From a virus, in IMG/VR virus record IMGVR_UViG_3300001450_007678, positions 1 to 29,961 of that record: 29,961 nt of DNA; one strand, given 5' to 3'. Below are positions 488-27,804 of this stretch, piece after piece. The position numbers and the translations under genes were made by a program. Under the pieces are notes generated by a model, which worked only from the letters and a program-made list of their open reading frames with translations, did not search any database and was not told where the DNA came from. Numbering within the stretch: position 1 is the first letter of the stretch; each line of letters begins with the position of its first letter.

Positions 488-710
488 TTGCCACCACCTC
501 ATTATCAAGCAACATAGTGTGTCCTGATTGTTGGTCGTAGTATATAATGTCTTTTTTCTTAATCATATCTACATCTGTACCTACATTTAACACTTCACCT
601 TTTCTATATCGCATCTTAGATGTTTCTTCTCCTGAAAGAAGAAGCCCTGACTTTGTAGTTACCTCTTCATCTATGGGTCTTATTATAATATATGTTCCTA
701 TTGCTTGCAT
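453..710 (-). CDS. groES: co-chaperonin GroES
   Basis: An 85-aa GroES, shorter than the usual ~97 aa. It caps the GroEL ring and closes the folding chamber in the host cytoplasm. It opens with the family's IIIRPIDEE strand (cellular form: RPL.DRV), followed by the mobile-loop region TTKSGLLLSGEE, whose GLLL matches the hydrophobic GIVL contact to GroEL, then KGEVLNVG and KKKDIIYY, which match RGEVLAVG and GDIVIF. The roof hairpin looks shortened. It starts inside the last codons of groEL (13-nt overlap, 698-710), so it is probably translationally coupled. The order groEL then groES is the reverse of the standard bacterial operon. Its 3' end overlaps the opposing winged-helix gene by 35 nt. 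Confidence 0.9.
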   Translation of the reverse strand: MQAIGTYIIIRPIDEEVTTKSGLLLSGEETSKMRYRKGEVLNVGTDVDMIKKKDIIYYDQQSGHTMLLDNEVVAIIRQMNVVVVL

Positions 711-2317
711 GTTGTATCGTATGAACGTGCCATTGTAATAATAGCGTTAGTACTTAGTATGGTATTAGCAACTGATATAGCATTACTTAATGCACTTACG
801 GTAACTTTAGTAGGGTCTATTACCCCTAAGCTTATCATATTACCCTTTTTTTCAGTTACTACATTATATCCATCACCCTTTTTAAATGCTGTATTGTAAG
901 TTTTGTCAAAATTTAACCCTGAATTCTCAAGTATCTGTTTTACAGGAGAAGATAAAGACTTACTTAAAATTTTATAAGCTATTTGTTCAGCTTCAGTTTT
1001 TCCTTGAACTAACTCATCTCTTACATTTAACAGCGCAACCCCACTCCCTGGAAGTATTCCATCAGACAAAGCAGAACGTACAGCACATACAGCGTCATCA
1101 ACTCTATCATATAGTTCTTTTTGTTCTAGGTCAGTATTACCCCCCACATATATAACTCCTACCCCTCCGGTAAGTGATGCAATACGTGACAATATAAACT
1201 CTCTATCAATTTTTGTTTTAGCTCTACTATGTGCATCTTTTAATTCTTCTACCCTTACAGATAATAATTCTTGATGCTCTTCGTCTTTTGGCGAACAAAG
1301 GACAACAGTGGAGTCTCTCCCAACTATCACCTTGGACGCTCTCCCTAAATCGGAGAAGTTTACAATACTCAAGTCGTCCCCTGTTTTTTCTGAAAAATAT
1401 GTTGCTCCTACAGACATAGCTATATCTTGCATAAGCTCATGGGTTTTCCAACCAAATGACGGAGGTGGTATAATACACACCTTTAATCCTCTTTTCATAA
1501 CATTAGCCGCTAACGTTTGAACAACATTTTGTGAGCATGGTGCTATAATAAGAAGCTTTTTACTTTCTTGAATAATAGGTTTTAGTATTCCCTCAATATT
1601 TAAGACATTACTAATTTCAGCATCAGATACTAAAATGTGAACATTTTCTAATACACACTCGTCTTTCTTTTGATTATTAACAAATAAGTTACTAGAATAT
1701 CCTCTGTCTATTTTTATTCCTTCAGTAGTTTCTGAATAAGTATCAGAACTTTGTGACTTTTCCACTGTCACTATTCCGTTTTCCCCCACTATATTATAAG
1801 TGTCCGAAATTATCTTTCCCACAAACTCGTCATTGTTTGCAGAAATAGTTGCAACATTATTTAATGTTTTTTTAGTTACCTTAATACTATCTTTTTTTAA
1901 CCTTTCAATAATATCAACAGTATACGTAGATAAAGAACGTATAACTTCAGTAACACTAATGTTAGGGTTTGTTATTAATAACTCAGTAGTATTTTTAACT
2001 ATAGCTTCAGTTAAAACAATAGCGGTAGTAGTTCCATCTCCGGCCAGAGTAGCTGTTCTTTCAGCAGCTTGTTTCATTATTCTAACCGCTAAATTCTCTA
2101 CAGGGTCAAGAAGCTCAACCGACTTAGCAACTGTAACTCCATCTTTCGTTACGGTAATGCTAGCGGTATGTTCAGGTGATTCAATAAGAACTGTGTTACC
2201 TCGTGGACCGAGGGTACTTTTTACTGCCTTAGCAATTTTAGTAATTCCTTTGATTAACTTTTCTCTACCTTCTGTACCGAAGTCGAGCTCCTTGGGGATA
2301 TATCCTGTATTGTTCAT
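698..2317 (-). CDS. groEL: chaperonin GroEL (phage-encoded)
   Basis: A 539-aa group I chaperonin (cellular GroEL is ~548 aa) that would form an ATP-driven folding ring. Visible signatures are LGPRGNTVLIE (36-46; cellular LGPKGRNV), KDGVTVAKSVEL (58-69), the nucleotide-binding GDGTTTA (93-99, with the magnesium/ATP Asp), RVDDAVCAVRSAL near residue 403 with the hydrolytic Asp equivalent, and GILPGSG. The apical and intermediate regions are diverged. The C-terminus ends ARSYDTTCKQ and lacks the GGM-repeat tail of bacterial GroEL. These differences mark a phage lineage rather than recent host capture. Transcription probably starts at the TATATTTG box 29 nt upstream. The clients may be phage virion proteins such as the 2858-aa protein in this window, which is inference. 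Confidence 0.95.
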   Translation of the reverse strand: MNNTGYIPKELDFGTEGREKLIKGITKIAKAVKSTLGPRGNTVLIESPEHTASITVTKDGVTVAKSVELLDPVENLAVRIMKQAAERTATLAGDGTTTAIVLTEAIVKNTTELLITNPNISVTEVIRSLSTYTVDIIERLKKDSIKVTKKTLNNVATISANNDEFVGKIISDTYNIVGENGIVTVEKSQSSDTYSETTEGIKIDRGYSSNLFVNNQKKDECVLENVHILVSDAEISNVLNIEGILKPIIQESKKLLIIAPCSQNVVQTLAANVMKRGLKVCIIPPPSFGWKTHELMQDIAMSVGATYFSEKTGDDLSIVNFSDLGRASKVIVGRDSTVVLCSPKDEEHQELLSVRVEELKDAHSRAKTKIDREFILSRIASLTGGVGVIYVGGNTDLEQKELYDRVDDAVCAVRSALSDGILPGSGVALLNVRDELVQGKTEAEQIAYKILSKSLSSPVKQILENSGLNFDKTYNTAFKKGDGYNVVTEKKGNMISLGVIDPTKVTVSALSNAISVANTILSTNAIITMARSYDTTCKQ

Positions 2318-2385: not shown

Positions 2386-2550
2386 ATGTCAAATTTTTTT
2401 AATGATATTTATATATATATATATCCCCCTATTATATAAAAAAGATTCACTAAAAAAGCTTTAGTTTTTTGACATTTTCGACACTAGTTCTGATAGTCAG
2501 TTAGTTAAGTACTATAAATCGACACTATTTTCGACATTATAATGTCAATA
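2386..2550 (+). repeat. spaced GACA element, copy A (candidate origin or operator)
   Basis: The motifs are ATGTC at 2386, GACAT at 2471, TCGACAC at 2478, TCGACAC at 2519 and TCGACAT at 2531. The GACA starts are 85 (from ATGTC), 9, 41 and 12 nt apart. The same motifs at exactly the same spacing occur at 12922-13086, with no gaps needed. From 2471 to 2550 about 55 of 80 bases are identical to that copy, including TGATA.TCAG at 2491-2500. The 80 nt between ATGTC and GACAT are A/T-rich but unalike in the two copies. The right end forms the perfect palindrome GACATTATAATGTC (2533-2546). The ATG at 2542 sits where the primase start codon sits in copy B. Array plus AT-rich tract resembles an iteron-type origin, or an operator for one repressor; function is inferred. 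Confidence 0.8.
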
Positions 2551-2601
2551 ATAGACACTTTCTTAACATTAAATTAATATTAGAAGTATTATATTTATGA
2601 T

Positions 2602-9800: not shown

Positions 9801-10068
9801 GGAAAAAATACAACAAGTAAGCAGAAGGGTGTATGAAATGCTTTCAGAAAAAAATGATGCGTACGGAAATTCGGCGCTTGAACCTATTAATATATTTAGC
9901 AAGGGGAAGGCAAGCCAATCTTTATGCGCAAGGATAGACGATAAGTTAGCGAGAATAAAAAATAGAGGATTGTCAGATGAAACTGAGGATACTCTTTTTG
10001 ATTTATGTGGATACCTTATATTATTAATAATAGCAAAAGAAAACGAAAATGAAAAAAGAGATATTTAA
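9793..10068 (+). CDS. nucleotide modification associated domain 1 (Nmad1/DUF1599)-like protein, 91 aa
   Basis: The pattern KNDAYGNSALEPINIF (about 19-34), then LCARIDDKLARIKN (about 43-56) and ETEDTLFDLCGYLILL (about 62-77) matches the Nmad1/DUF1599 family, small alpha-helical proteins often found with base-modification or nucleotide-metabolism genes in phages. The acidic residues in E..D...D..GY resemble metal ligands of the helical NTP-pyrophosphatase type, so a nucleotide-handling role is plausible. No DNA-modifying enzyme is visible in this window, so the partner is missing or elsewhere. The ATG at 9793 (ATGAGTAA overlapping the previous stop) is preferred over an earlier in-frame start. 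Confidence 0.7.
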   Translation: MSKEKIQQVSRRVYEMLSEKNDAYGNSALEPINIFSKGKASQSLCARIDDKLARIKNRGLSDETEDTLFDLCGYLILLIIAKENENEKRDI

Positions 10069-10348
10069 CCAATATGTAGAAGAGGTCGCTCAAGCCTTTG
10101 AAGTGCGAGCATCAGACATCTTTACTAAAACAAAAGAAAGAACCAAAGTAGACGCGCGCCATGTGTTATATTACTTGTGTAAAAATCGACCAATGAGGAT
10201 AACCTACATTCAAAAATATATGGAAAGTAGAGGTTATAAAATAAACCACTCTTCTATTATTCACGGAATATCTCAAATAGAAGAAAAGATATCTGAAGAT
10301 AAAGACTACACAGATTTAATAAACAGAATAGAAGAATGTATAGCTTAG
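10049..10348 (+). CDS. DnaA domain IV-like DNA-binding protein, 99 aa
   Basis: Resembles the C-terminal DNA-binding domain of DnaA without the AAA+ ATPase: an N-terminal helix with Phe/Val (1-25), then VDARHVLYYL (34-43, where DnaA has aR.iamYL), a middle helix-turn-helix (MRITYIQKYMESRGY) and HSSIIHGI (67-74), equivalent to the DnaA signature HTTVihA that reads the DnaA box. It could recognise a specific DNA repeat, with the twin GACA elements as obvious candidates, or regulate host DnaA sites. Overlaps its neighbours by 20 and 13 nt. Binding specificity is not known. Confidence 0.8.
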   Translation: MKKEIFNQYVEEVAQAFEVRASDIFTKTKERTKVDARHVLYYLCKNRPMRITYIQKYMESRGYKINHSSIIHGISQIEEKISEDKDYTDLINRIEECIA

Positions 10349-12879: not shown

Positions 12880-12913
12880 AGGGGAGGTCTGTCATATTCC
12901 TCCCCTTTTTTTT
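12880..12913 (+). terminator. rho-independent terminator ending the recombination operon
   Basis: AGGGGAGG / CCTCCCCT stem of 8 bp, 11-nt loop, then seven T after the paired one. It separates the recombination unit from the primase unit. Confidence 0.9.
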
Positions 12914-12921
12914 GTGCCGAA

Positions 12922-13086
12922 ATGTCAAAAAAAACTCTTCGTAATATATATTTATATATTTTTATTTTATATTTTATTTTATTTTACCTAAATTGAACTT
13001 ATAATCGACATAATCGACACTAACATTGATAATCAGCTACTTACGTTAAACAAAACGACACTAAAAACGACACTACTATGACACAA
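12922..13086 (+). repeat. spaced GACA element, copy B (candidate origin or operator)
   Basis: Motifs ATGTC at 12922, GACAT at 13007, TCGACAC at 13014, ACGACAC at 13055 and ACGACAC at 13067. Every motif lies exactly 10,536 nt from its partner in copy A at 2386-2550. The 80 nt after ATGTC are nearly pure A/T (12944-12985 has only T, A and a few others). The last motifs abut the primase start codon at 13078, so a bound protein would block or control it. No TAnnTTTG promoter was found between the terminator and the primase start, so transcription may begin from an unusual promoter within this element. Confidence 0.8.
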
Positions 13087-15495
13087 AGCATCACTATATT
13101 TAAAAATATAAGAGAAACATCTACACCATTTTACAGAGAGGTATCAGTTGTATTGGATAGAATACAAGAGGGTTCATCTAAAGAGCTTGTTAAAAAAATA
13201 AGATTAGAAAAAGATAAATCTAATCGCAATGAGTTGAAAAAAGAATTACCTGCCATTTGCTTTTCTGGAAAGTTTAATAAAAGAAATGACAATTCAATAG
13301 TAGAGCACAGTGGGATAATATGTTTAGATTTTGACGGATATAAAAAGCAGAAAGATTTATTATCAGATAAAGAGCAGATAAGTAAAAACAAACACGTTTA
13401 CTCAGTTTTTATTAGTCCTTCGGGCAATGGTTTAAAGGTGTTAATTAAAACTCCACAAGATGCAGATAATCACGTGCATTACTTTAATTCTTTAGAAAAG
13501 CATTTCTCTTCTCCTTACTTTGATAAGACGTGCAAAAACCTTAGTAGGGTGTGCTATGAAAGTTATGACCCTTTAATATATGTAAACGAAAATTCTTCTG
13601 TATGGGATATTATAGAGGACATAGAATACACAGAAGTGAATGTTCACAGAGACCCCCCAACCATACCCATTACAGATGAAAATAAAATTGTGGAGATATT
13701 AATTAAGTGGTGGCAAAAAAAATATCCTATGATAGAAGGTCAAAGAAACCAAAACGTATATGTTTTGGCTATGGCTTTTAATGATTACGGAATTAATAAA
13801 TCTTTATCTTCTTATGTTCTTAATAATTATGCAACTCAAGATTTTAATTTAAATGAAATTCAAAGGACTATTGATAGTGCTTATTTACACACCCAAAATT
13901 TTGGAACTAAATACTATGAAGATGAAGAAAGGTTAAATACTATTAAATCAAAATTAAGAAGAGGGGTAACAAAAAAAGAAATAAGAAGTCAATTAGAAGA
14001 AACTAATTTAGATGACAAAACTATTGAAGCAGTTTTACATAAAGTTGAAGAAGAAAATAACTTAAAGCAATTTTGGACTAAAAGCGATAAGGGGGTTATA
14101 AAGATAGTGCATATATTATTTAAGCATTTTTTAGAAGATAGTGGGTTTTATAAGTATTGTCCCGAAGGTAGTAAGAATTATGTGTTTGTAAGAGTAACTA
14201 ATAATTTAATAGACCATACATCAGAAAAAGAAATAAAAGATTTTATATTAGACCACCTTATTCAATTAGATGATAGCTCTATATATAATTATTTTGCAGA
14301 CCAAACAAGGCTATTTAGAGAGGAGTTTTTAACCCTGTTGTCCACTATTGATATATATTTTATAGCAGACACTAAAGATTATTCTTATTTATATTACAAA
14401 AACTGTGCCGTGCAAATAAGTAAAAATGAAATTAAAACTATAGACTATTTAGATTTAGGTGGTTATGTTTGGAAAGACCATATTATAAATAGAAACTTTA
14501 ATCTTTGCAGTTCAGAAGATTGTGATTATAAAAAGTTTGTTTATAATGTTTGTGGTCAAGATGATGAAAGAACATTATCCATGGAGAGTACCATAGGGTA
14601 TATGTTACATGGACATAAAAACCTTTCTTATTGTCCTGCCGTAATTTTAAATGATGAAGTAATATCAGATAATCCGGAAGGAGGAACGGGAAAGGGAATT
14701 TTTATGAACGCATTGTCGCAAATGAAAAAAGTTGTCACTATTGACGGAAAGTCTTTTGCTTTTGAAAGGTCATTTGCTTATCAGTTAGTATCAGCAGACA
14801 CACAAATACTTGTGTTTGATGATGTAAAAAAATACTTTGATTTCGAAAGATTGTTTAGTGTTGTGACAGAGGGTTTAACATTAGAGAAGAAAAATAAAGA
14901 TGCTATAAAAATACCTTTTAGTAAGTCTCCTAAAATAGCAATAACAACAAACTATGCTATTAAGGGTGCGGGTAATTCTTTTGCTCGTAGAAAGTGGGAA
15001 TTGGAATTACATCAACATTACAATAAATCTTATTCTCCTTTAGATGATTTCGGAAAACTTTTATTTGGAGATTGGGGAGATGAAGAGTGGTGTCAATTTG
15101 ATAACTATATGATAAGTTGTCTACAGAACTATTTAACATCAGGATTGCATAAAAGTAAATTTGTAAATTTAAAAGTGAGACAATTATCTGCAGAGACTTC
15201 TCACGACTTTATAGAATGGTGTGGATTAATAAAAGGTTCACAACACAACCATAAATTAGTTGTAGATGCAAGGAACTATAAGCATAAACTATATTTAGAG
15301 TTTATAGAAGAGTATCCTGACTATGGACCAAAAGCTAAAATGACAATCTCAAGAACTAGATTTTACAAATGGTTAGTATCTTATGCTTTGTTTAAAGAAG
15401 GAGTGCAACCCGAAGAGGGAAGGGATTCGGCAGGAAGGTGGATAAGGATAAGAAGTAAAAAAGAATTAGAAGTACAAACCAATATAGAATTTTAA
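13078..15495 (+). CDS. primase-helicase (BT4734/VirE-type primase domain + SF3-type helicase), 805 aa
   Basis: A replication protein that would make primers and unwind DNA at the fork. Residues 1-190 match the BT4734/VirE N-terminal domain, a primase-polymerase-like fold common in Bacteroidota elements: CFSGKFNKRND, ICLDFDGYKK with acidic DFD (84-86) and FISPSGNGLKVLIK (111-124). A helical linker follows (WWQKKYPMIEGQRNQNVYVL). The ATPase has Walker A GGTGKG (535-540), Walker B ILVFDD (577-582) and the sensor-type ITTNY (622-626), with an Arg-rich segment (SFARRKWELEL) after it. The C-terminal ~130 residues look like a winged-helix domain. The start lies in spaced element B. The next gene begins 2 nt after the stop. 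Confidence 0.85.
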   Translation: MTQSITIFKNIRETSTPFYREVSVVLDRIQEGSSKELVKKIRLEKDKSNRNELKKELPAICFSGKFNKRNDNSIVEHSGIICLDFDGYKKQKDLLSDKEQISKNKHVYSVFISPSGNGLKVLIKTPQDADNHVHYFNSLEKHFSSPYFDKTCKNLSRVCYESYDPLIYVNENSSVWDIIEDIEYTEVNVHRDPPTIPITDENKIVEILIKWWQKKYPMIEGQRNQNVYVLAMAFNDYGINKSLSSYVLNNYATQDFNLNEIQRTIDSAYLHTQNFGTKYYEDEERLNTIKSKLRRGVTKKEIRSQLEETNLDDKTIEAVLHKVEEENNLKQFWTKSDKGVIKIVHILFKHFLEDSGFYKYCPEGSKNYVFVRVTNNLIDHTSEKEIKDFILDHLIQLDDSSIYNYFADQTRLFREEFLTLLSTIDIYFIADTKDYSYLYYKNCAVQISKNEIKTIDYLDLGGYVWKDHIINRNFNLCSSEDCDYKKFVYNVCGQDDERTLSMESTIGYMLHGHKNLSYCPAVILNDEVISDNPEGGTGKGIFMNALSQMKKVVTIDGKSFAFERSFAYQLVSADTQILVFDDVKKYFDFERLFSVVTEGLTLEKKNKDAIKIPFSKSPKIAITTNYAIKGAGNSFARRKWELELHQHYNKSYSPLDDFGKLLFGDWGDEEWCQFDNYMISCLQNYLTSGLHKSKFVNLKVRQLSAETSHDFIEWCGLIKGSQHNHKLVVDARNYKHKLYLEFIEEYPDYGPKAKMTISRTRFYKWLVSYALFKEGVQPEEGRDSAGRWIRIRSKKELEVQTNIEF

Positions 15496-17184: not shown

Positions 17185-17470
17185 AGAAATAAAATGCAGG
17201 TTTGACGACTATTTTATAGACGAACTAATTACATTGCCTTACAATGCGGCCATAGGAATAATGGACGCAGTAAAAATAAATTCATCCCTGTTGCCAGAAA
17301 AAGATAATTGGTCACAGATGGTAGCGGGGGTTATAAAGGGAAGAGACCCTTTCTTTTTTGAATTAGAGTATATAAAAGAAAAAGGAGAAGACCCCCTTTA
17401 TTTAGATATATTAGAAATAAACTGTGACGAATACTTAGACTATATAAATTTAAATCAATTTTTAAAATGA
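17153..17470 (+). CDS. hypothetical protein, 105 aa
   Basis: A very acidic protein, with FDDYFIDELITLPYNAAIGI (about 17-36), DNWSQMVAGVIKGRDPFFFE (about 51-70) and a C-terminus rich in Asp/Glu/Tyr (DILEINCDEYLDYINL). The high negative charge could mimic DNA, but there is no direct evidence. It overlaps the VRR-NUC gene by 32 nt and the following DnaA-like gene by 4 nt (ATGA). Confidence 0.65.
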   Translation: MEFEPKYIEDKEIKCRFDDYFIDELITLPYNAAIGIMDAVKINSSLLPEKDNWSQMVAGVIKGRDPFFFELEYIKEKGEDPLYLDILEINCDEYLDYINLNQFLK

Positions 17471-17907
17471 AATTATCACCAGACGCACAAAACGCAAAAG
17501 ATATGATAGAAAGAAAGTTTCACCTAAAACTAGAAACTAAATGTCGAACAGCACCATACATAAAAGCAAGATGTATGTTTTCTAAACTTATGAAAAACCG
17601 GGGTTATGGTTGTTTAGCGATAAGTAAAATGTTAGAATTAAACCACGCTACTATTCTCAACTACTTTGAAAACTTCAAATGGTGGTATAAAACAGATGGA
17701 GATTTTTATACTACTTACGAACAATTTTATGAACAAATGAAAAGTTACTCTATAGTTTATACACAAATGAACGAATATGAGTTAAAAAAAGAACTACTTT
17801 TATTACAAACTGAGAATAAAAACTTATATTTACTCAACCAAAAGCTAGAAACCCAAGTAAAAGAACTAAAAGAAAGCAAGGTTATGTATATAGAAAGCAG
17901 AATGTAA
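17467..17907 (+). CDS. DnaA domain IV-like protein with coiled-coil tail, 146 aa
   Basis: The second DnaA-C-like protein of the window. YIKARCMFSKLMKNRGYGCL (31-50) corresponds to the basic R.i..yL helix of DnaA domain IV, and AISKMLELNHATILNYF (51-67) to the helix-turn-helix whose NHATIlnyf matches the DnaA HTTV signature. Residues ~105-146 form a heptad-like coiled coil (LKKELLLLQTENKNLYLLNQ), likely for dimerisation. No AAA+ domain is present. A dimeric DNA binder could recognise pairs of sites, such as the 12-nt-spaced GACA repeats; this link is inference. Confidence 0.75.
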   Translation: MKLSPDAQNAKDMIERKFHLKLETKCRTAPYIKARCMFSKLMKNRGYGCLAISKMLELNHATILNYFENFKWWYKTDGDFYTTYEQFYEQMKSYSIVYTQMNEYELKKELLLLQTENKNLYLLNQKLETQVKELKESKVMYIESRM

Positions 17908-18821: not shown

Positions 18822-19231
18822 GGTTTGAATCAAAAGAGGATTTAGTTAGAGAGACTAAGGCTATAGAAAGATTTGTTAGACTGTTCAGTGGTAGTTATAA
18901 AAAACTTGGGCCAAATGATATTGACTTTCGAGTGTTTGATAAAGATAAGAAAATTATAACTTACGTAGAGGTAAAAGGTAAAAGTAGTTGGTTGAAAGAG
19001 TGCTTTCCTTTATATGTAGCCGCCAGGAAGCTAGTAAAACTTTGTGACAAAAGACTAAACCCTGTAGTTATGTGGGCATGTAATGACGGTATTATATACG
19101 CTAAAGTTCCTGAGCTCGTAGGAGAAATGAGATGGGGTGGAAGAAAAGATATACGAGACGAAAGTGTAAACGACCAAGAGCTTATGGTTTATTTCGAAAA
19201 CCAAAAGTGTTTTAAATATTTAAAGTATTAA
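18818..19231 (+). CDS. PD-(D/E)XK-type nuclease-like protein, 137 aa
   Basis: The ATG at 18818 overlaps the previous stop (ATGA) and is preferred to an earlier in-frame start within the phosphoesterase gene. DIDFRVFD (34-41) and YVEVKGKSSWLKE (49-61) give the D...E-x-K core of the nuclease fold, with Glu11/Glu17 as possible first acidic residue. The second half (VVMWACNDGIIYAKV) holds a further strand. It may be a Holliday-junction or branch nuclease closing the replication operon. Its stop codon shares bases with the stop of the opposing giant gene (TTAA, 19228-19231). Confidence 0.75.
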   Translation: MRFESKEDLVRETKAIERFVRLFSGSYKKLGPNDIDFRVFDKDKKIITYVEVKGKSSWLKECFPLYVAARKLVKLCDKRLNPVVMWACNDGIIYAKVPELVGEMRWGGRKDIRDESVNDQELMVYFENQKCFKYLKY

Positions 19232-22200
19232 TTTTTTTTATTCTTCCTTCTTTTTCTTATATCATCTATTCTTTTTTGTTGTGCAGGAGATATTTTCTTT
19301 TTCTTAGACTTTTTCTTTCCTCTTGCTGAATTAGGTCGGTAAGAAGAACTAACACCTATCACATCATAAAAAGCGTCCTCACTAATATCTCCTTGTTCAA
19401 TTAATGTTTTAATAGGAAGGTTTACATCTACACCGTCCCCCTCTACACTTAACTCAAAGAATGGGTCAAATTGAAAACCTAAATAAAGCTCTCCTAAACT
19501 CTCTACTGTTTTAACTCCTTTCTGTAACTTAGATAAATCTTCATTTGCTAAATACTTAATCATTTCTGTTGTAACTCTATTAAAAGGATTAACACCTTCC
19601 TCTATTTGTCTTGGGTTTTCTCCAGACATTTTTAATAAAGCATATTCTAACGAACCACCCAAAAAAGGAACTTGACTAACAAGGTTCATCCCATACATAG
19701 ACCTTTTCATTTGTTTTAAGACCTCTTCTTTATCTTCATCTTCACCTTTAGTAAATTTAAATATATTAGCCATTGCTATAAATAAAACGTTAGCCACACC
19801 TAAATTTAAAACAAAAGCCCTCATGGCATCTGAGTCAACATTACCTTTAGCTCCCGCTCTCACAATGTTGGTCATACCCATATATACTTTATTCATTTGT
19901 AAAAACAGAGTGCTACCAAACATAGTAAAGAATCTATTTTTAAAATCAGTGCTCATTTGTAATGGAATCTTTTCTGTTCTCCCTCTTGTTTGCTGTGTTA
20001 ACTCATAGTTTTCAAAACTCTCTAAAGCTACTTCAGGGTCTACCCCCGCTCTTATGTCGGCATTATAATTAGCCATATAACCCATTACCCCCATAACGTC
20101 ACCCAATATTGTTGGTGAAGCCATTGCTGTTTTAAAAGCTCTTATAAAATCTCCCATCCTTGTTTCTTTTTGACTCACGCTTCTGTCTGTTGGACTACCA
20201 GAAACTAAACCATATAAGTCTCCTTGTAAACCTTTTTGAACCCTATCTCTAAATACAGGACTTAACTTGTAAGCTTTTTGTAATTGCTTAGGAAGCGTAA
20301 GCATTATATAACCCATGTCGGCCATAAAAGCAATTAGCTCAACAGGAGTAAGGACAGCATCTTTAAATTTAGTTGCTCTACTTTGTTGGTCTTTAGGCGC
20401 TCTACTTCTAGTAAATTTATAGTCTTCAAAAGCATTAATAAAAGAAGAGGCTTGTTTAGGAATCTGCATTAATCTAAACGCTAAAGCATAAGAGGTAAAT
20501 TTAGACATAATTTTTTCAATAAACCCTTGCTGAGAATCATTAAGAGAATCGGGGTTAATAGCAAAATTCATTGCTCTTTTTATAGCACGGTCTAACCCGG
20601 AAGCTTCTAATAATACCTTTACGGAGGGTGTATTAATAATAGCCGTTAAATCTTTAACACCTAAAGCGTAAGACTTGTAGTGCTCCATGTTTTCTACATG
20701 GTTAGATAACGTATCTAAAAAACCGGGGTCTAAATTAACATCCCCTGTAACATCAGCTCTTTCTTTTAAAGCAGAGTGGGTTTCATCTGTAAATATATTG
20801 CCAAAATTACCTTCTATTAAAAGTTGTTCCGTAGCCTTTTGTCTACTTATGGTTTGTGTTGGAAAGTAGTTTTCTACATAATCTAAACTAACATCATTTG
20901 ATTCTTTGTAAACCTCATTTATAGTTGGAAAGTATTCATTACTTAAAAAGTCCACTACTTTGTCTGCAAACTCTATAGGCTGAGCTCCTAATATTTTTTT
21001 AATCTCATCTATTTTTTCAGGCGTAAAGCCTTGCTTTTCAAGCTTAGCTCTTTGAGTTTCGTTTTTACTTAAAGTATATATACGTAATAATTGGTCACCA
21101 CTAAGCTCCATTGTTTCTCCTTTTACTTTTAAGTATACTTTACCAATATAAAGTTGTTTTCTTATTTCCCTGTAACCTTTTGTAATTCCAGGGATAGAGT
21201 TAGCTATCTCATCAAACTTCTTGTTTATCTTTTCAATACCAAGTATTTGATTTCGGTGCATCTTTCTTAAAGGTCTGTATATATTGTTTTTAAAAAAGTT
21301 TTTGCCCTCCAAACTTCTATCTAATATATCAGTAAGAGTTCCTAGGTGAGACAAGTGTTCTTTAAAAAATGAGCGAATACCTATTATGCTGTTAAATTTT
21401 AAACCTTTGACATAGTTTTTTAAATTCTTTAAAAGTTTTTTATCTCTAAATATGTCTTTAATTTTTAAGTTATCCTGACTTAATTGGTTTGCATTTTTAG
21501 GAATTTTATTTCCTTTTTCGTCAGTAGTAAATAACTCAGGATATGTTTTTTCTATTTGCTCTGTTGCTTGGTCACTTAACTTCTCTTGTTTAGCTGCTCT
21601 TTCTAATCTTTTTAATTGTAACCTTCCAATAGACTCCGCTCTAGCTTCTTCTAATATTTTTAATTTAGCTTCCACCTCTTCCATGCTTGCAGACATAATA
21701 TCACCTACAGTATCAAACGCTTTTATTTTATTAAGCATTGCCTGCTCTTTATTTGTTAAGGCTTCAGGGTTATTAAGAGCTTTTGCTATTAATTCAGCCT
21801 CAGTTATTTGAAGTTGTTTTAATATATTATCAGAACTTATTTCATCTTTTATTTTTTGAATCTCTAAGTTTCGGGTGTCATTATCTTTAATTAAAGCAAC
21901 CTTTAAAACTTTCTTCACCTCTTTAAAGAAGTCACGACCAATAGCATCTAAACCTTTACTAATTTTCCTACCACCTTTGGTAACTGCTGCTGCAGCTTTT
22001 TTTCTTACTAACTTTTCAATCTTTAAGATTAATTCGTTTTTAATTTTTGTTTTTTGTTTATCTACAATCTTCATCACCTCCTCTGTTTTTGCTATGTAAT
22101 TCTCAGAAGTCAAGTCAGTAATTCTTTTTAATAAAGAATTAATTTGTGTTTGACTATAGGTGCTTGACTTAGGAAGTGTTCTTCTAATTAAACCTCTAAG

Positions 22201-25200
22201 TTGATTCTGAAGGTTTTTTATATCTTTAACGGCTAACTTTTTATTCTTTATAATGTTTCTAATAGAACTTATTTCCTTTTGAATGGTTGGGTTGGTTCTT
22301 ATTTCTAAGCTTCTATCTAGCGCCACCTGCATAGCCATTTGTGTGTCGGCATTTTGTTTTTGATAAACCTCACTTTCTTTTAAAAGTCGTTGAGCTTCTG
22401 CTCTAACATCAGAATAAGTTCTAACTCTTCTTGCTCTTCTTTTACCTTCAGGAGTGGTGTAAGCAAACGTGTTTAATTTATTTTTAATAGTATTAAATAA
22501 TCTAAAACCATCTATTGCTCCTCCTTCTATATTAGTAAATTCAGTAGGTAAAGTAACATTCTCATCCACTTGAACTTTCATAGCTTCATTTATATCTGTA
22601 GCCTTAAAACCTCTTGATTGTAAAACACTTTTTATAGATGCGTCTGATATTCCCTGCTGTCTACCCTTGTTAACTATATCAACAATAGAGTCAGTAGAAC
22701 TAAACATTACTTCGGGGTTCTTTAATTGTATAAGTTGCTTGTCGGTAAGCTTTATTTCTTTACCAGAAAATATATCTGCTAGTGCTGTTCCTAAAAAGTT
22801 ATCAAGCGTCATGTTTTGAATTTCACTTGTAGTTAAATTTTTAGACATTTTAAATTGAGACTTAATGTAAGTCCACATTCCTTGCAGCCAATTGTTAAAT
22901 TTAGAAACCAAACTACCGCTTGCAATATCTTCACCTTTGTTGGCTATTAGTATAGCCATAGTCTCATCTACTGCTTTTTTAACATCACCATTAAATTTAC
23001 GTAATTGCTTTTGATAAAGCTGAGTCTCCATAACAAGCTGAGAACCTTTTTTATAAATCTCCCTACCCTTTTCTGTAGTTTGAAGAAAATTAGTCCACAC
23101 GTGACCAAACTCGTGAATCGAGGTATTAAATAATTCTGATTGACTATTATGAACTTCAGGGTTTATCCATATATCTCCATCTACAGTCACCCCATAATAC
23201 GTTTGACCATCTCTGGTATATTGCCTAACATCATCTCTGCTTATAACATTATTAAAAGCTTCTTGTGTTGAGCTTATATTTACTGATGGAAAAGCCTTGT
23301 TCATAAAAGCTAACATTTGAGTGTTGTTATTTACAGAGTCTCCCTCAGTTACTAAACCACTTATAACTTTTGATATTTCAGATGGAGTAAGAGGTCCAAA
23401 GCTAGCAAATGCTTTGTTAATAGCATCAACCAACATCTTTTCATCTTTAAAACTAAATTGAGTTTCTCCCATAACCTTTCTGTCTTGGTTTCTTCGAAAT
23501 TGCGTACTAGGGCTCTTACGAGTTGTAGGCTTTCTTCTTGTGGTTTTACCTTTTTCTTCTAAAGCCGACCATGTTCTTTCCGCTGTTGGGGAAGTATAAT
23601 TTTTATCAGATTTTAAAGGTTGGTTATAATTTTCTGTGACAAAAGAATTAGCACCTTCATACATTTGTTGACCTAATCCTAAACCTTGTAGGTCCGGATG
23701 TATTTCTGAAATGGTAACCGTTCCGTTTTCTTTCCCCATTTCCACACCCTGTCTTCCTGCTATCATTTCAAGCCTTCCTACTAACTGACCATCTGCATGT
23801 AAAAACACACGAGCCTTATAAGGATTTACTTGAAAGAAATCTCTTTGCTCTTTGGTCATTTTACTACCATCCATAACAAGGTACTTAACCTCTACTTCTT
23901 TATTTTTTATTTTGGTAACTAAATCTGCATCTAACTCAAAAGAAGGTTTGTTATCTTTAAATATACCTGTAGTAAACATCATACCCCCTCTTTTCTCTTT
24001 TCCATTTTTTGACAACTTGTTTACTAAATCATTAAAAGCTTTAACAACACCACCATCAACAGGAGACCTGTTAATATTCGGTTTTTTATTTTTATTTTCG
24101 CTTTTAAACTGAACAAACTCCGCATTATCATCTACCTTACCCTCTGTTTTAAAATCAACTTTTGATTTAGTGTCTTCTTGAAGCATTAACTCTAAGTCCA
24201 TAGCTCCCTGCATGTCGTTTTCAATTTCAGCCACTCTAGTTTCATTGTCAGTAAAAAGTTGTTGTTGAAACGGTGTTAATTTTTTCTTGTTAATATTTTT
24301 ATTTGCTACTTCTGATAAAAGACCATCGAGTCTTTGCTCATCTAACTCTCCACCTGCATATCTAGTTTTATCTTTTTGTGTAGCTTTTATAGGTTTAGGG
24401 ATAGAAGGTGGTTGTGCTTCTACGTCAGTCTCTTGCTCTTGGATTTTAGAAGTTTGGTCTTTAGTGGTAGTTTTTTGTTGGGTGTCTCCTTCTCCCACTG
24501 TTGAGCCATCTGTGGTTTGTTTTTCCACATCCACGCTCTCTGTTTTTGACTCTTGAACGGCATCTCTTTTTTTATTATTTAAAAGGGTTAATACTTCATT
24601 ATCATTAATTACGTTTATTTTGTCATCTAGCTCATCTACTTCTACGCTAGTTAATTTATTTAATCTTCTAATAAAAGATTTTTTGCTATATTTTTTACCA
24701 TCTATTGTATAAGAGGTTGTTTTCATGCCCGGAGCTTTCACGTCTAACAAAGCAGATACATTTATACCACCTTCTACTGTTTGTCCGGTGGCGGCCATTT
24801 GAGATAGCTCTGCGTTTATATCCGCTATAGTTTTAGAGTTTAATTGTTTTAGATTAGATGTTCGGCTTAAATCTTTTTTAGCACTCAATAACTCCATAGC
24901 TCTAGCTATATTTTTATTAGAAGCTTTTTTACCTAAAAGGTCTTTAGCAGTTCTACGGTTACCTATATTTTCTTGAATCTGTTGGTTTTGTTCTTTACTA
25001 ATTTTACCTAAATTAAGCATGTTGTTAGACCATTGAGATATTCTTGAGTCACTAACATTTTCATTAGCCATATAATTAAAGTCTAATAGATTGTTAGCTA
25101 TATCAGTATTACTGTTATTAACTTTGTCCATAAACATATTTACAGCCATACCAGAGGTGTTGTTTCCTAACCCTCCCCATGATTCTAATAATATTTCTTT

Positions 25201-27804
25201 ACTATTTATTTCTTGACCTGCAGTTACTTGAGCCAAATACTCACCAAACCCTTCTGCGGCCGGGTCAAATACAATTCTTTCTCCTGTTGCTGCTAAAATT
25301 TTTGTTGACTTCAAGGCAGTTTTACCTGTTGTAAACACTCTACCTGCTAATCCTGCAGAGAAAAAGTCTACTAAACCTATTGGAATACCTCTTTTTAACC
25401 CCATTTCTCTACCGGCTGCCCACACCTCTTTATCCGCAAAAGCTTTAGCTACATCATCAGGATTTGTTAAGTCATATCCGGCTTCACCCATAGTTTCCAT
25501 TAAAGAATTTGTATACTCTAAAACAAAACCTGACAAACCAAAACCTGTTCTAAAACCCCAGGCTGCTCCTGTAATGCCTCCCGGAAGTGCACCACCTCCT
25601 GCCGCAGTTGCTCCCACACCCGCTCCCAAACCTGCTCCTATAGCAGTGGTACTTGGTATTATAACCATTCCGTAAGGCAACATTTGCGTAAGACTCTCAC
25701 TCATTAAAGCTAACCCATTAACTAAAAGCATATCTACTCTCAATCCACTTTCTCCCAATAAGTATTTTGTAGACTCACCACTCACAGCTCCTCCCTCTGA
25801 ACGCATATACCTAGATAAAAGTTTGGATTGTCGTGGGTCTATATTACCTAAATACTCAGCTACTCTTTCTTGAGTTTCTTTATCTTGAGGGTCCTTCATT
25901 CCTAGCTCCATTTGAATTAAAAGTTTACCCGCTTGTCCTCTGTTCCATGCGTTTTTTAAAGAAACCCTCCAAGCCTCCATTCCCGTTAAATATTCTCGGG
26001 TAATATTTGCATCATTTTTTCTATCAAAAAATGTTTTAGAGACTTCGTATTTATAAGCTGCAAATTGTTGAGTTAATGTACCCACATCTCTTGATGCAAT
26101 AAGTTCTTGTTTTAATTTTTCTTCTTGTTCGTTTTTAGGAACAACAAACTGTAATGAATCTAAAGGAACACCAAATTGTTTTAATGACATAACATTCATT
26201 TGGTCTACATATTGAAGCGCTTGTTCATTTAGTTGTGCGGCTTCTTGAGCTTTGTATTCAAAATTACGTTGTAGTTTTAAATCTAACTCATCTCTTAAAT
26301 CTTCTGCTTCATTACTCATAACTACATCTCTAAGAGATTCTTCTTGCTCTTCTAAGGCTTCTAATGTTTCTTCATAGTTGTTATATAAATTATAATTTCC
26401 GTTTGCGTCTTTGTAAACGTAATCAGGATGTAGTTTGGCAACATCTTCAGGAATTTTTAAAGTATTTGTACCATATTTGGGCATATAATACTCTATAAAA
26501 TCTATATCATCTTTTACTTGGTCATAATTCTCAAACATTTCTTGTTCAGAATAATAATCTTTTCCTTTATCTTGATAAAACTGTTGAGCGAAAACTTCAG
26601 GTGAACTAATGTTTTTCCAACCACCTTCTGCAAATTTTGCTGCCTCTTCTTCAGTGTCAAAGTAATAAACCTCTCCTCTTGTTTTAGCAAACAATAAAGC
26701 GTCTTCCCAATCGTTTTCAGCAAACTCTGTCCATCTTTCAGGCCAAGCACTGTGTATGTCGTTGTCTGTAGGGAAAAGTGTAGGAAAAGCTACGAATCGA
26801 CCATCTTCTTCAGCATAAGCCATAAGGTGTGATGACACACTACCGTCTCCATTTTGTCTAGCTATTTTTCTGCTTTGTTGTGCTTTAATAGATTGTGAAA
26901 TAAAATCCGAAGGTCTTTCGCTTCTACTTTCTTCAGCAGTAGAAAACTTAATAATAAAGTCTTTTAATTTTGCACTTGCTTCAGGGTTTTTTTCATCAAC
27001 CTCAATTTCAATGTTATTTAATCCATCTAAGGTTCTTACTTGTATATTTTGACCCCGTCCTGTAGCTGAAAAAACAAAGCCATATTTAGAAAACTTTTCA
27101 GTTAAATAATTAACAACATCTTCTTCTTTTTGTGACGTTAAATCAGGGTCTATAGTTACTATATCCTGTTGAAATTCTATATTATTATATAATAAATCGT
27201 TATAAGCGTTTTCTTTTTCTAGTTTTTGAATTTCTAGTTCTTTATTTTTAATTTCATTTTGGTTTGGATAATTATTTCTTCTTTCTTTTTCTTCTTCAGA
27301 TAAAGCATCATACTCTTCTTTTCCCTTTTTTATTGCTTCTTGATTTCGCGTTTCTTTATCTATTATATCCATTTGTGGAGCTACCACGTCAACACCCCTA
27401 CGTGTTGCGTCCATTGGTTCGGATTGGGGGGTTAAATTGTTTTGTGATTGATTTTTAACATCTTCAAAAGTAAATGAATCTTTAACCTCATCACCCCCTT
27501 TTAACTCTTGAATTTTTTCTATAAATTCTGTTGGACTAGTTGACTGAGATTCCGATGAACCATCTTCCGAAGGAGAATCCAAAACGCTGACGTCTGGGTT
27601 TTTTTTTTCAGGCAAGGTTTCAATCCCCATTAATAAAGCGAAGTCCTCAACCTTTTTAGCATATCCTTCATTTTTAGCGTTATCGTACATTGTCATTAAC
27701 GCATCAAAATCTTCTGACATTAACTTTAAAAAGTCCGCTTTACTTTTACGGTAACCTTCATCTACGGCTACCTTATACATTACATCTACTGCTTCTTCAT
27801 TCAT
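19228..27804 (-). CDS. giant multidomain polyvalent protein, 2858 aa
   Basis: Probably an internal virion protein ejected into the host, of the large polyvalent protein type. Layout by approximate residue: 1-60 two repeats of a Y..A..EGY..K..DF..LM motif; 192-286 and 317-400 conserved-looking mixed domains (SHLMAYAEEDGRFVAFPTLF); 690-760 a Gly/Ala-rich hydrophobic stretch (IGAGLGAGVGATAAGGGALP) able to insert in membrane; ~1280-1410 a GNAT-acetyltransferase-like region with HPDLQGLGLGQQMYEGA; 1564-1568 HEFGH, a zincin HExxH metallopeptidase motif; ~1770-2200 Lys-rich coiled coils; ~2310 YVENYFPTQ; 2400-2800 helical, partly hydrophobic; last ~30 very basic (ARGKKKSKKKKIS). It is separated from the 712-aa gene by 9 nt and has no promoter in that gap. 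Its stop overlaps the opposing gene's stop by 4 nt. Enzymatic assignments are motif-based. Confidence 0.8.
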   Translation of the reverse strand: MNEEAVDVMYKVAVDEGYRKSKADFLKLMSEDFDALMTMYDNAKNEGYAKKVEDFALLMGIETLPEKKNPDVSVLDSPSEDGSSESQSTSPTEFIEKIQELKGGDEVKDSFTFEDVKNQSQNNLTPQSEPMDATRRGVDVVAPQMDIIDKETRNQEAIKKGKEEYDALSEEEKERRNNYPNQNEIKNKELEIQKLEKENAYNDLLYNNIEFQQDIVTIDPDLTSQKEEDVVNYLTEKFSKYGFVFSATGRGQNIQVRTLDGLNNIEIEVDEKNPEASAKLKDFIIKFSTAEESRSERPSDFISQSIKAQQSRKIARQNGDGSVSSHLMAYAEEDGRFVAFPTLFPTDNDIHSAWPERWTEFAENDWEDALLFAKTRGEVYYFDTEEEAAKFAEGGWKNISSPEVFAQQFYQDKGKDYYSEQEMFENYDQVKDDIDFIEYYMPKYGTNTLKIPEDVAKLHPDYVYKDANGNYNLYNNYEETLEALEEQEESLRDVVMSNEAEDLRDELDLKLQRNFEYKAQEAAQLNEQALQYVDQMNVMSLKQFGVPLDSLQFVVPKNEQEEKLKQELIASRDVGTLTQQFAAYKYEVSKTFFDRKNDANITREYLTGMEAWRVSLKNAWNRGQAGKLLIQMELGMKDPQDKETQERVAEYLGNIDPRQSKLLSRYMRSEGGAVSGESTKYLLGESGLRVDMLLVNGLALMSESLTQMLPYGMVIIPSTTAIGAGLGAGVGATAAGGGALPGGITGAAWGFRTGFGLSGFVLEYTNSLMETMGEAGYDLTNPDDVAKAFADKEVWAAGREMGLKRGIPIGLVDFFSAGLAGRVFTTGKTALKSTKILAATGERIVFDPAAEGFGEYLAQVTAGQEINSKEILLESWGGLGNNTSGMAVNMFMDKVNNSNTDIANNLLDFNYMANENVSDSRISQWSNNMLNLGKISKEQNQQIQENIGNRRTAKDLLGKKASNKNIARAMELLSAKKDLSRTSNLKQLNSKTIADINAELSQMAATGQTVEGGINVSALLDVKAPGMKTTSYTIDGKKYSKKSFIRRLNKLTSVEVDELDDKINVINDNEVLTLLNNKKRDAVQESKTESVDVEKQTTDGSTVGEGDTQQKTTTKDQTSKIQEQETDVEAQPPSIPKPIKATQKDKTRYAGGELDEQRLDGLLSEVANKNINKKKLTPFQQQLFTDNETRVAEIENDMQGAMDLELMLQEDTKSKVDFKTEGKVDDNAEFVQFKSENKNKKPNINRSPVDGGVVKAFNDLVNKLSKNGKEKRGGMMFTTGIFKDNKPSFELDADLVTKIKNKEVEVKYLVMDGSKMTKEQRDFFQVNPYKARVFLHADGQLVGRLEMIAGRQGVEMGKENGTVTISEIHPDLQGLGLGQQMYEGANSFVTENYNQPLKSDKNYTSPTAERTWSALEEKGKTTRRKPTTRKSPSTQFRRNQDRKVMGETQFSFKDEKMLVDAINKAFASFGPLTPSEISKVISGLVTEGDSVNNNTQMLAFMNKAFPSVNISSTQEAFNNVISRDDVRQYTRDGQTYYGVTVDGDIWINPEVHNSQSELFNTSIHEFGHVWTNFLQTTEKGREIYKKGSQLVMETQLYQKQLRKFNGDVKKAVDETMAILIANKGEDIASGSLVSKFNNWLQGMWTYIKSQFKMSKNLTTSEIQNMTLDNFLGTALADIFSGKEIKLTDKQLIQLKNPEVMFSSTDSIVDIVNKGRQQGISDASIKSVLQSRGFKATDINEAMKVQVDENVTLPTEFTNIEGGAIDGFRLFNTIKNKLNTFAYTTPEGKRRARRVRTYSDVRAEAQRLLKESEVYQKQNADTQMAMQVALDRSLEIRTNPTIQKEISSIRNIIKNKKLAVKDIKNLQNQLRGLIRRTLPKSSTYSQTQINSLLKRITDLTSENYIAKTEEVMKIVDKQKTKIKNELILKIEKLVRKKAAAAVTKGGRKISKGLDAIGRDFFKEVKKVLKVALIKDNDTRNLEIQKIKDEISSDNILKQLQITEAELIAKALNNPEALTNKEQAMLNKIKAFDTVGDIMSASMEEVEAKLKILEEARAESIGRLQLKRLERAAKQEKLSDQATEQIEKTYPELFTTDEKGNKIPKNANQLSQDNLKIKDIFRDKKLLKNLKNYVKGLKFNSIIGIRSFFKEHLSHLGTLTDILDRSLEGKNFFKNNIYRPLRKMHRNQILGIEKINKKFDEIANSIPGITKGYREIRKQLYIGKVYLKVKGETMELSGDQLLRIYTLSKNETQRAKLEKQGFTPEKIDEIKKILGAQPIEFADKVVDFLSNEYFPTINEVYKESNDVSLDYVENYFPTQTISRQKATEQLLIEGNFGNIFTDETHSALKERADVTGDVNLDPGFLDTLSNHVENMEHYKSYALGVKDLTAIINTPSVKVLLEASGLDRAIKRAMNFAINPDSLNDSQQGFIEKIMSKFTSYALAFRLMQIPKQASSFINAFEDYKFTRSRAPKDQQSRATKFKDAVLTPVELIAFMADMGYIMLTLPKQLQKAYKLSPVFRDRVQKGLQGDLYGLVSGSPTDRSVSQKETRMGDFIRAFKTAMASPTILGDVMGVMGYMANYNADIRAGVDPEVALESFENYELTQQTRGRTEKIPLQMSTDFKNRFFTMFGSTLFLQMNKVYMGMTNIVRAGAKGNVDSDAMRAFVLNLGVANVLFIAMANIFKFTKGEDEDKEEVLKQMKRSMYGMNLVSQVPFLGGSLEYALLKMSGENPRQIEEGVNPFNRVTTEMIKYLANEDLSKLQKGVKTVESLGELYLGFQFDPFFELSVEGDGVDVNLPIKTLIEQGDISEDAFYDVIGVSSSYRPNSARGKKKSKKKKISPAQQKRIDDIRKRRKNKKN

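Follow-up and report, generated by a model that had tools for sequence, protein, structure and literature searches.

Two copies of a composite element

The window, i.e., the whole stretch of 29,961 positions that was analysed, belongs to a phage genome record of 58,040 bp and carries two copies of a composite element. Copy A (2386..2560, plus strand) lies about 150 bp upstream of groEL (698..2317, minus strand), on the strand opposite to that gene. It is composed of an inverted iteron TGTC at its left edge (2387..2390, minus strand), which precedes iteron 1 by 84 bp, an AT-rich tract with a TATATATA run (2391..2470), which is the presumed DNA-unwinding element, iterons 1 and 2 (GACAT and CGACAC, 2471..2484, plus strand) with a period of 9, an IHF-like site (AGTCAGTTAGTTA, 2495..2507, plus strand) with two mismatches to WATCAANNNNTTR, where the family consensus reads WATCARNNANTTA, an iteron array with iterons 3 and 4 (CGACAC and CGACAT, 2520..2537, plus strand), and, in addition, an extra TGTC at 2543 and an extra GACA at 2554.

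Copy B (12922..13086, plus strand) follows the same plan immediately upstream of the primase-helicase gene, on the same strand, and ends in the start codon of that gene. Its inverted TGTC (12923..12926, minus strand) is followed by the AT-rich tract (12927..13006), again a presumed DNA-unwinding element, by iterons 1 and 2 (CGACAT and CGACAC, 13006..13021, plus strand), by the IHF-like site (AATCAGCTACTTA, 13031..13043, plus strand) with one mismatch to WATCAANNNNTTR, and by iterons 3, 4, and 5 (13056..13083, plus strand; starts at 13057, 13069, and 13080). Directly 5' of copy B, at 12881-12915 of the window, an intrinsic-terminator-like hairpin with a T run was observed, which is present in many relatives.

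An earlier note on this DNA had described twin non-coding elements with identical motif spacing. The motif positions that it gave are exact for copy A (TGTC at 2387; GACA at 2471, 2480, 2521, and 2533) as well as for copy B (TGTC at 12923; GACA at 13007, 13016, 13057, and 13069). The description as non-coding holds apart from the last 9 bp of copy B, which are coding, with the ATG at 13078 and the fifth GACA overlapping the start codon. The conserved IHF-like centre had no place in that description. A scan of both strands of the 58,040-bp genome with the pattern GACA-N5-GACA-N37-GACA-N8-GACA yielded two plus-strand matches, which start at 2471 and 13007, and no others. The frequency of 103 GACA per 29,961 positions leads to a chance expectation of about 2e-5 matches, a value that applies to a motif picked after the fact. 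Searches with Rfam and for tRNAs returned nothing, no near-identical DNA was found in deposited phages, and among the papers searched none was seen to describe the element.

The primase-helicase gene (13078..15495, plus strand) encodes a protein of 805 amino acids with a BT4734-like_N domain, a weak PriCT_1 match, a DUF5906 helicase domain with the Walker A motif GGTGKG, and a C-terminal winged helix. The domain order is thus that of the P4 alpha type, with an N-terminal primase, a central SF3/D5-like helicase, and a C-terminal winged helix, the primase assignment being based on family names and weak matches. The gene is flanked on either side by a gene for a DnaA domain-IV-like protein, namely D1 (10049..10348, plus strand), which is small, and D2 (17467..17907, plus strand), both of which have no ATPase domain. 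The window also contains a single open frame of 2,858 amino acids on the minus strand (19228-27804) of this 58-kb phage.

Conservation and placement in related phages

Relatives were gathered by primase-helicase and by GroEL, and an element profile was built from the regions upstream of the primase gene. The same layout was found upstream of the primase-helicase gene in most relatives fetched, and the profile matched copy A in 62 of 80 contigs and copy B in 148 of 197 contigs. All matches lay upstream of groEL or of the primase gene, besides matches at the A position, 7-10 kb before the primase gene, in loci where groEL was unrecognised or lay past the end of the locus. Nearly all A elements (69 of 71) are on the strand opposite to groEL, for copy B the primase strand was the one scored, and A and B have the same orientation in 12 of the 14 loci that hold both (L312 and L313 are the exceptions). 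The two copies are separated by about 8-11 kb, have the same orientation, and occupy two fixed places.

The earlier note had named two findings that would speak against it, a spacing that is not conserved in related phages and equally good matches in shuffled sequence, and neither was obtained. A 9-bp gap between iterons 1 and 2 is kept by 42 of 46 A elements and by 100 of 103 B elements, and Markov-1 shuffles of the same contigs gave zero profile matches. A gene-independent scan of IMG/VR for a half-element pattern led to at least 81 matches, essentially all at the A or B position; among the matches listed, 41 were B, 38 were A, and 2 more were found to be B on inspection, of which one lies where a contig ends.

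In several contigs with a seemingly missing A or B, the same architecture turned out to be present with other iterons (TGGAATA, TGAACA, or CGTCA). Real loss of B has occurred in a few contigs, and in one small lineage (L080, L125, and L136) A is kept and B was not seen. These A-only genomes suggest that A can suffice. Copy A without a recognisable B was observed in L080, L125, L136, and L357, with CGTCA iterons in L125 and L136 and TTCGACA in L357, and in these four loci a terminator-like sequence that includes a TTTTCATATTAATTGGTT-like stretch stands in front of the primase gene. The element is absent from Flavobacterium phage elemo, which has a related GroEL and a different primase-helicase arrangement.

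A shared anatomy with helical spacing

Across the family, the order of parts is inverted TGTC iterons, an AT-rich tract of about 80 bp, a GACA pair, the IHF-like site, and another iteron array, which follows an 11-bp lattice and in B is succeeded by the start codon. The family consensus is TAAAATYGACATWWTCGACAY, about 10 bp, WATCARTWAGTTA, about 12 bp, and AAATCGACAYTAAAATCGACAY, and the iteron consensus is TYGACAY/TCAACAY. Canonical DnaA boxes, TTATCCACA, are not present as repeats in the element.

The centre matches the Escherichia coli IHF consensus WATCAANNNNTTR (sixth position A or G), whereby the preference of Bacteroidota IHF/HU proteins may differ. At most one mismatch to this consensus, which is that of E. 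coli and may not be that of the host, was found in 60 of 74 A and 119 of 138 B elements. The site sits at a fixed place within the element, and exact consensus matches elsewhere occur once per 11,600 sites.

The tract to the left of the first iteron pair is T-rich, with an AT content of about 0.8-0.9 at -60 to -20, and in relatives it keeps TATATATA, CCCTATATATAT, or CTCTCTCT together with TTATTATT runs. In copy A of several genomes (L100, L126, L129, and L145), CTCTCTCTCT or GAGAGAGAGA was observed in place of the TATATATA run; it is therefore the alternation that seems to be kept, not the exact sequence. On the far side of the tract, inverted TGTC iterons are clustered at -82 to -86 and at -91 to -94. 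The TGTC that the earlier note had placed 84 bp before iteron 1 is enriched at -83 to -86 in relatives and often doubled at about -93. The TGTC clusters bound the AT-rich tract in relatives, and this upstream TGTC is therefore a conserved part of the element. The inverted TGTC at about -84/-93, the AT-rich tract, and the direct GACA pair are present in both A and B.

The spacings within the element are steps of approximately one helical turn. The gap from iteron 2 to the IHF-like site is 15 or 14. Between iterons 2 and 3 the commonest gap is 41, and most others are 30-31, 52-53, or 63, which forms a helical-turn lattice; some of the 30- and 52-bp gaps may reflect an extra or a missing iteron, not an indel, and both values are on the 11-bp lattice. 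Between iterons 3 and 4 the gap is 11-12. The 12-bp gap given in the earlier note is correct for the genome of the window, whereas most relatives have 11.

Concerted change of the iterons and covariation with the primase-helicase

The iteron words found across the family are GACA, AACA, TGGAATA, and CGTCA, while the IHF-like site and the geometry are unchanged. Whole-genome switches have led to TCAACA, to TGGAATA (L274), to TGAACA (L258 and L277), and to CGTCA (L125 and L136). Agreement of the first base among the four iterons of an element was 0.87 in A and 0.73 in B, compared to 0.62 and 0.585 predicted from the column frequencies, and this agreement is partly due to shared ancestry. Iteron words are also shared between the copies: for 19 genomes, the sharing between A and B of the same genome was 7.7, compared to 5.0 between A and B of different genomes, and 0 of 5000 permutations reached a value as high. 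The common words of A and B within one genome indicate that one protein very probably reads both copies.

The candidate for this protein was sought in an unbiased manner: 12 protein families of the replication region had enough homologues, and each of their alignment columns was compared with the iteron class. For the primase-helicase (798 columns), the three strongest columns were 735, 787, and 734, all of which are in the C-terminal winged helix. Two small families, orf15498 and orf17153, had similar or higher single-column values, which were obtained with 45-66 genomes and a high background. Residues 787 and 735 were found by association. R787 (codon 15436..15438, plus strand), in the wing strand, occurs with GACA iterons and is replaced by K with AACA iterons; K735 (codon 15280..15282, plus strand), where the first helix of that domain begins, is replaced by M with AACA iterons. 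Genomes with K787 have AACA iterons in 29 of 31 cases (2 are mixed), the combination R787 and K735 goes along with GACA in 89 of 97 genomes (5 mixed, 3 AACA), and all eight genomes with R787 and M735 have AACA. Among held-out genomes, K787 or M735 was found in 22 of 29 with AACA and in 0 of 3 with GACA. Nine AACA genomes have neither K787 nor M735, which shows that the residue rule is incomplete. In L274, L269, and L286, iterons TTTGGAATA were observed together with the wing motif GRYIE instead of GRWI, which represents another specificity class.

The covariation was also evaluated against the phylogeny. A tree from which the C-terminal domain had been left out implies about 16 changes of the iteron class. 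Phylogenetically independent pairs agreed in direction in 6.5 cases and were opposed in 0 (median p of 0.016), a result that is based on few independent events. In a tree-aware scan of the 400 most iteron-associated residue states of the primase-helicase, K787 ranked first (5.4:0; the next state had 4.4:1.0).

The C-terminal domain (residues 715-805, encoded by 15220..15492, plus strand) is the proposed origin-binding domain. AlphaFold models of this region are winged helices with a pLDDT of 80-82, in which R787 is found where the second wing strand begins and K735 where the first helix begins. A Foldseek search with the 91-residue model had as best PDB match 1ka8, the origin-binding domain of phage P4, and the match was weak (E 0.33, TM about 0.4). 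These values support the fold class, not homology. Searches by sequence led to no relevant solved structure for the C-terminal domain, that of P4 included.

A model of twin replication origins and its alternatives

Taken together, A and B very likely represent twin replication origins of the iteron/IHF type, which would be bound by the self-encoded primase-helicase, the proposed iteron binder and initiator. The architecture at two fixed places, the concerted change of the iterons, and the covariation with the winged helix were observed; initiation, IHF binding, melting of the AT-rich tract, and autoregulation are inferred. According to this model, the C-terminal winged helix of the primase-helicase would bind the GACA iterons, and a host protein of the IHF/HU family would sharply bend the site between the two iteron arrays. 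The bend would bring helically phased initiator complexes together, and the helicase would be loaded at the AT-rich tract, whose far end is marked by the inverted iterons and which would melt. The fused primase could then start synthesis, before a host polymerase takes over. A search of the phage genome for the two polymerase families PolA and PolIII-alpha found no gene of either; the phage genome also has no HU/IHF gene, and reliance on a host IHF/HU protein is presumed. At B, the bound initiator would cover the start region of its own gene. The overlap of B with the start codon suggests autoregulation, and B probably serves to autoregulate the primase-helicase gene in addition. GC skew tracks the gene strand in this genome and cannot place an origin.

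If A and B were operators or promoters only, the primase-helicase or another protein would, together with IHF, regulate groEL and the primase gene, and there would be no origin at either site. Each copy is indeed directly upstream of a gene, B overlaps a start codon, and iterons just in front of an initiator gene commonly mediate autoregulation. However, the orientation relative to the adjoining gene is opposite in A and B, which would not be expected from a fixed promoter geometry, an AT-rich tract between opposed iterons is the anatomy of an origin, and the covarying protein is the primase-helicase, which together make regulation without replication improbable. The reading of the earlier note, twin replication origins or operators, is the best supported, and of the two, origins are clearly preferred to a role as operators only. 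Within the origin reading, there could be a division of labour like that of P4, in which two cis iteron regions, ori and crr, are read by one primase-helicase; replication would then start at one copy, while the other would be needed as an additional cis element. The presence of two iteron regions and one primase-helicase is this arrangement, and the pairing and the orientation of A and B are fixed. Yet both copies have the full set of parts, including the AT-rich tract, and L080, L125, and L136 have A alone, so that B is not obligatory in all members. Such a division of labour is possible, though less likely than not.

A different binder had been suggested in the earlier note, namely one of the DnaA-C-like proteins encoded at 10049 or 17467. 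The iterons would in that case be modified DnaA boxes (TTWTCGACA versus TTATCCACA). Both proteins are widespread in the family, and the iteron TTWTCGACA differs by one central base from a DnaA box. Nevertheless, neither protein covaries with the iterons, in contrast to the winged helix of the primase-helicase: the maximal adjusted R2 values were 0.31 and 0.43, compared to a background of 0.46 (Sak) and 0.41 (exonuclease) in unrelated neighbours, and residues of the recognition helix show no consistent change with the iteron class. Binding by these proteins thus seems quite improbable, even somewhat more so than a purely regulatory role of the elements. The least probable of the explanations, which we hardly believe, is that A and B are partition or recombination sites. 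It is inspired by P1 parS and phage att sites, in which protein boxes likewise flank an IHF bend. However, the phage genome has no tyrosine integrase, no ParA/ParB-like protein was found among the proteins scanned, and neither function predicts two full copies in direct orientation or covariation with the primase-helicase.

Comparison with known replication systems

The origins of pSC101 and R6K are compact and consist of iterons, an IHF bend, and an AT-rich tract, and thus have all these parts in common with the phage elements. They are, however, read by a Rep_3-type initiator, whereas the phage would use a primase-helicase and has two copies of identical plan, with iterons on both sides of the bend. 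Similarity to P4 concerns the order primase, helicase, winged helix, which is the same in the alpha protein and in the phage primase-helicase, and the presence of two separate cis regions that share their iterons. On the other hand, there is no detectable sequence similarity to a solved P4 structure, 1ka8 being the first structural match and a weak one (E 0.33), and the phage differs from P4 in having an IHF-like core and the full architecture duplicated in both regions, and in not being a satellite.

For phage-inducible chromosomal islands (PICIs; SaPI and the Gram-negative PICIs), a paper that also mentions P4 ori and crr reports that the origins always contain two iteron sets around an AT-rich region and are read by a Rep/primase-helicase which the island itself encodes (PMC6092414). 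In SaPI Rep and in SCCmec Cch2, it is the C-terminal domain that contacts the iterons of the origin (PMC7581432). The phage elements are alike in that two iteron sets flank an AT-rich region, and the covariation of the iteron base with the C-terminal residues 735 and 787 would be in agreement with a similar mode of binding. In contrast to PICIs and SaPIs, which have a single origin downstream (immediately 3') of rep, the phage has two copies, B 5' of the gene and A at groEL, and its elements contain an IHF-like centre and a further iteron array. PICIs and SaPIs are helper-dependent satellites that lack a full virion gene set of their own, while this phage is full-size and has genes for the large subunit of the terminase and for many structural proteins of the virion. 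The system would work like those of PICIs, SaPIs, and P4 and is best filed as a variant of the primase-helicase/iteron kind of origin; what sets it apart is its position, the IHF-like core, the duplication of the complete element, and the fact that its carrier is an autonomous phage.

Host and significance

The nearest named record is MW202828.1, a circular podovirus assembly of 60,850 bp. More distant relatives of the primase-helicase and of GroEL are encoded by phages of Flavobacterium, Polaribacter, and Cellulophaga, and the host is therefore likely a member of the Bacteroidota. One related contig is in a Cytophagales bin, and others are in bins of unrelated phyla. The bins of L356, L357, L358, and L362 are labelled Aliivibrio, Gammaproteobacteria, and Pacearchaeota, which are probably cases of mis-binning.

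An uncultured phage family represented by hundreds of metagenome contigs thus gains a precise candidate origin, which can be located via one pattern. The duplication raises the question of why a phage of 60 kb would keep two origins. A more speculative reading, which we put forward as a possibility and do not favour, is that the nucleoprotein complexes of the paired origins act together by A-B coupling or looping, that single substitutions in the wing of the shared initiator (R787K) shift the iteron specificity, and that both origins are rewritten in concert. The family also offers initiator/iteron pairs as a natural series, along which the specificity has apparently been changed many times via the same one or two residues, and this series would make origin recognition by primase-helicases directly testable.
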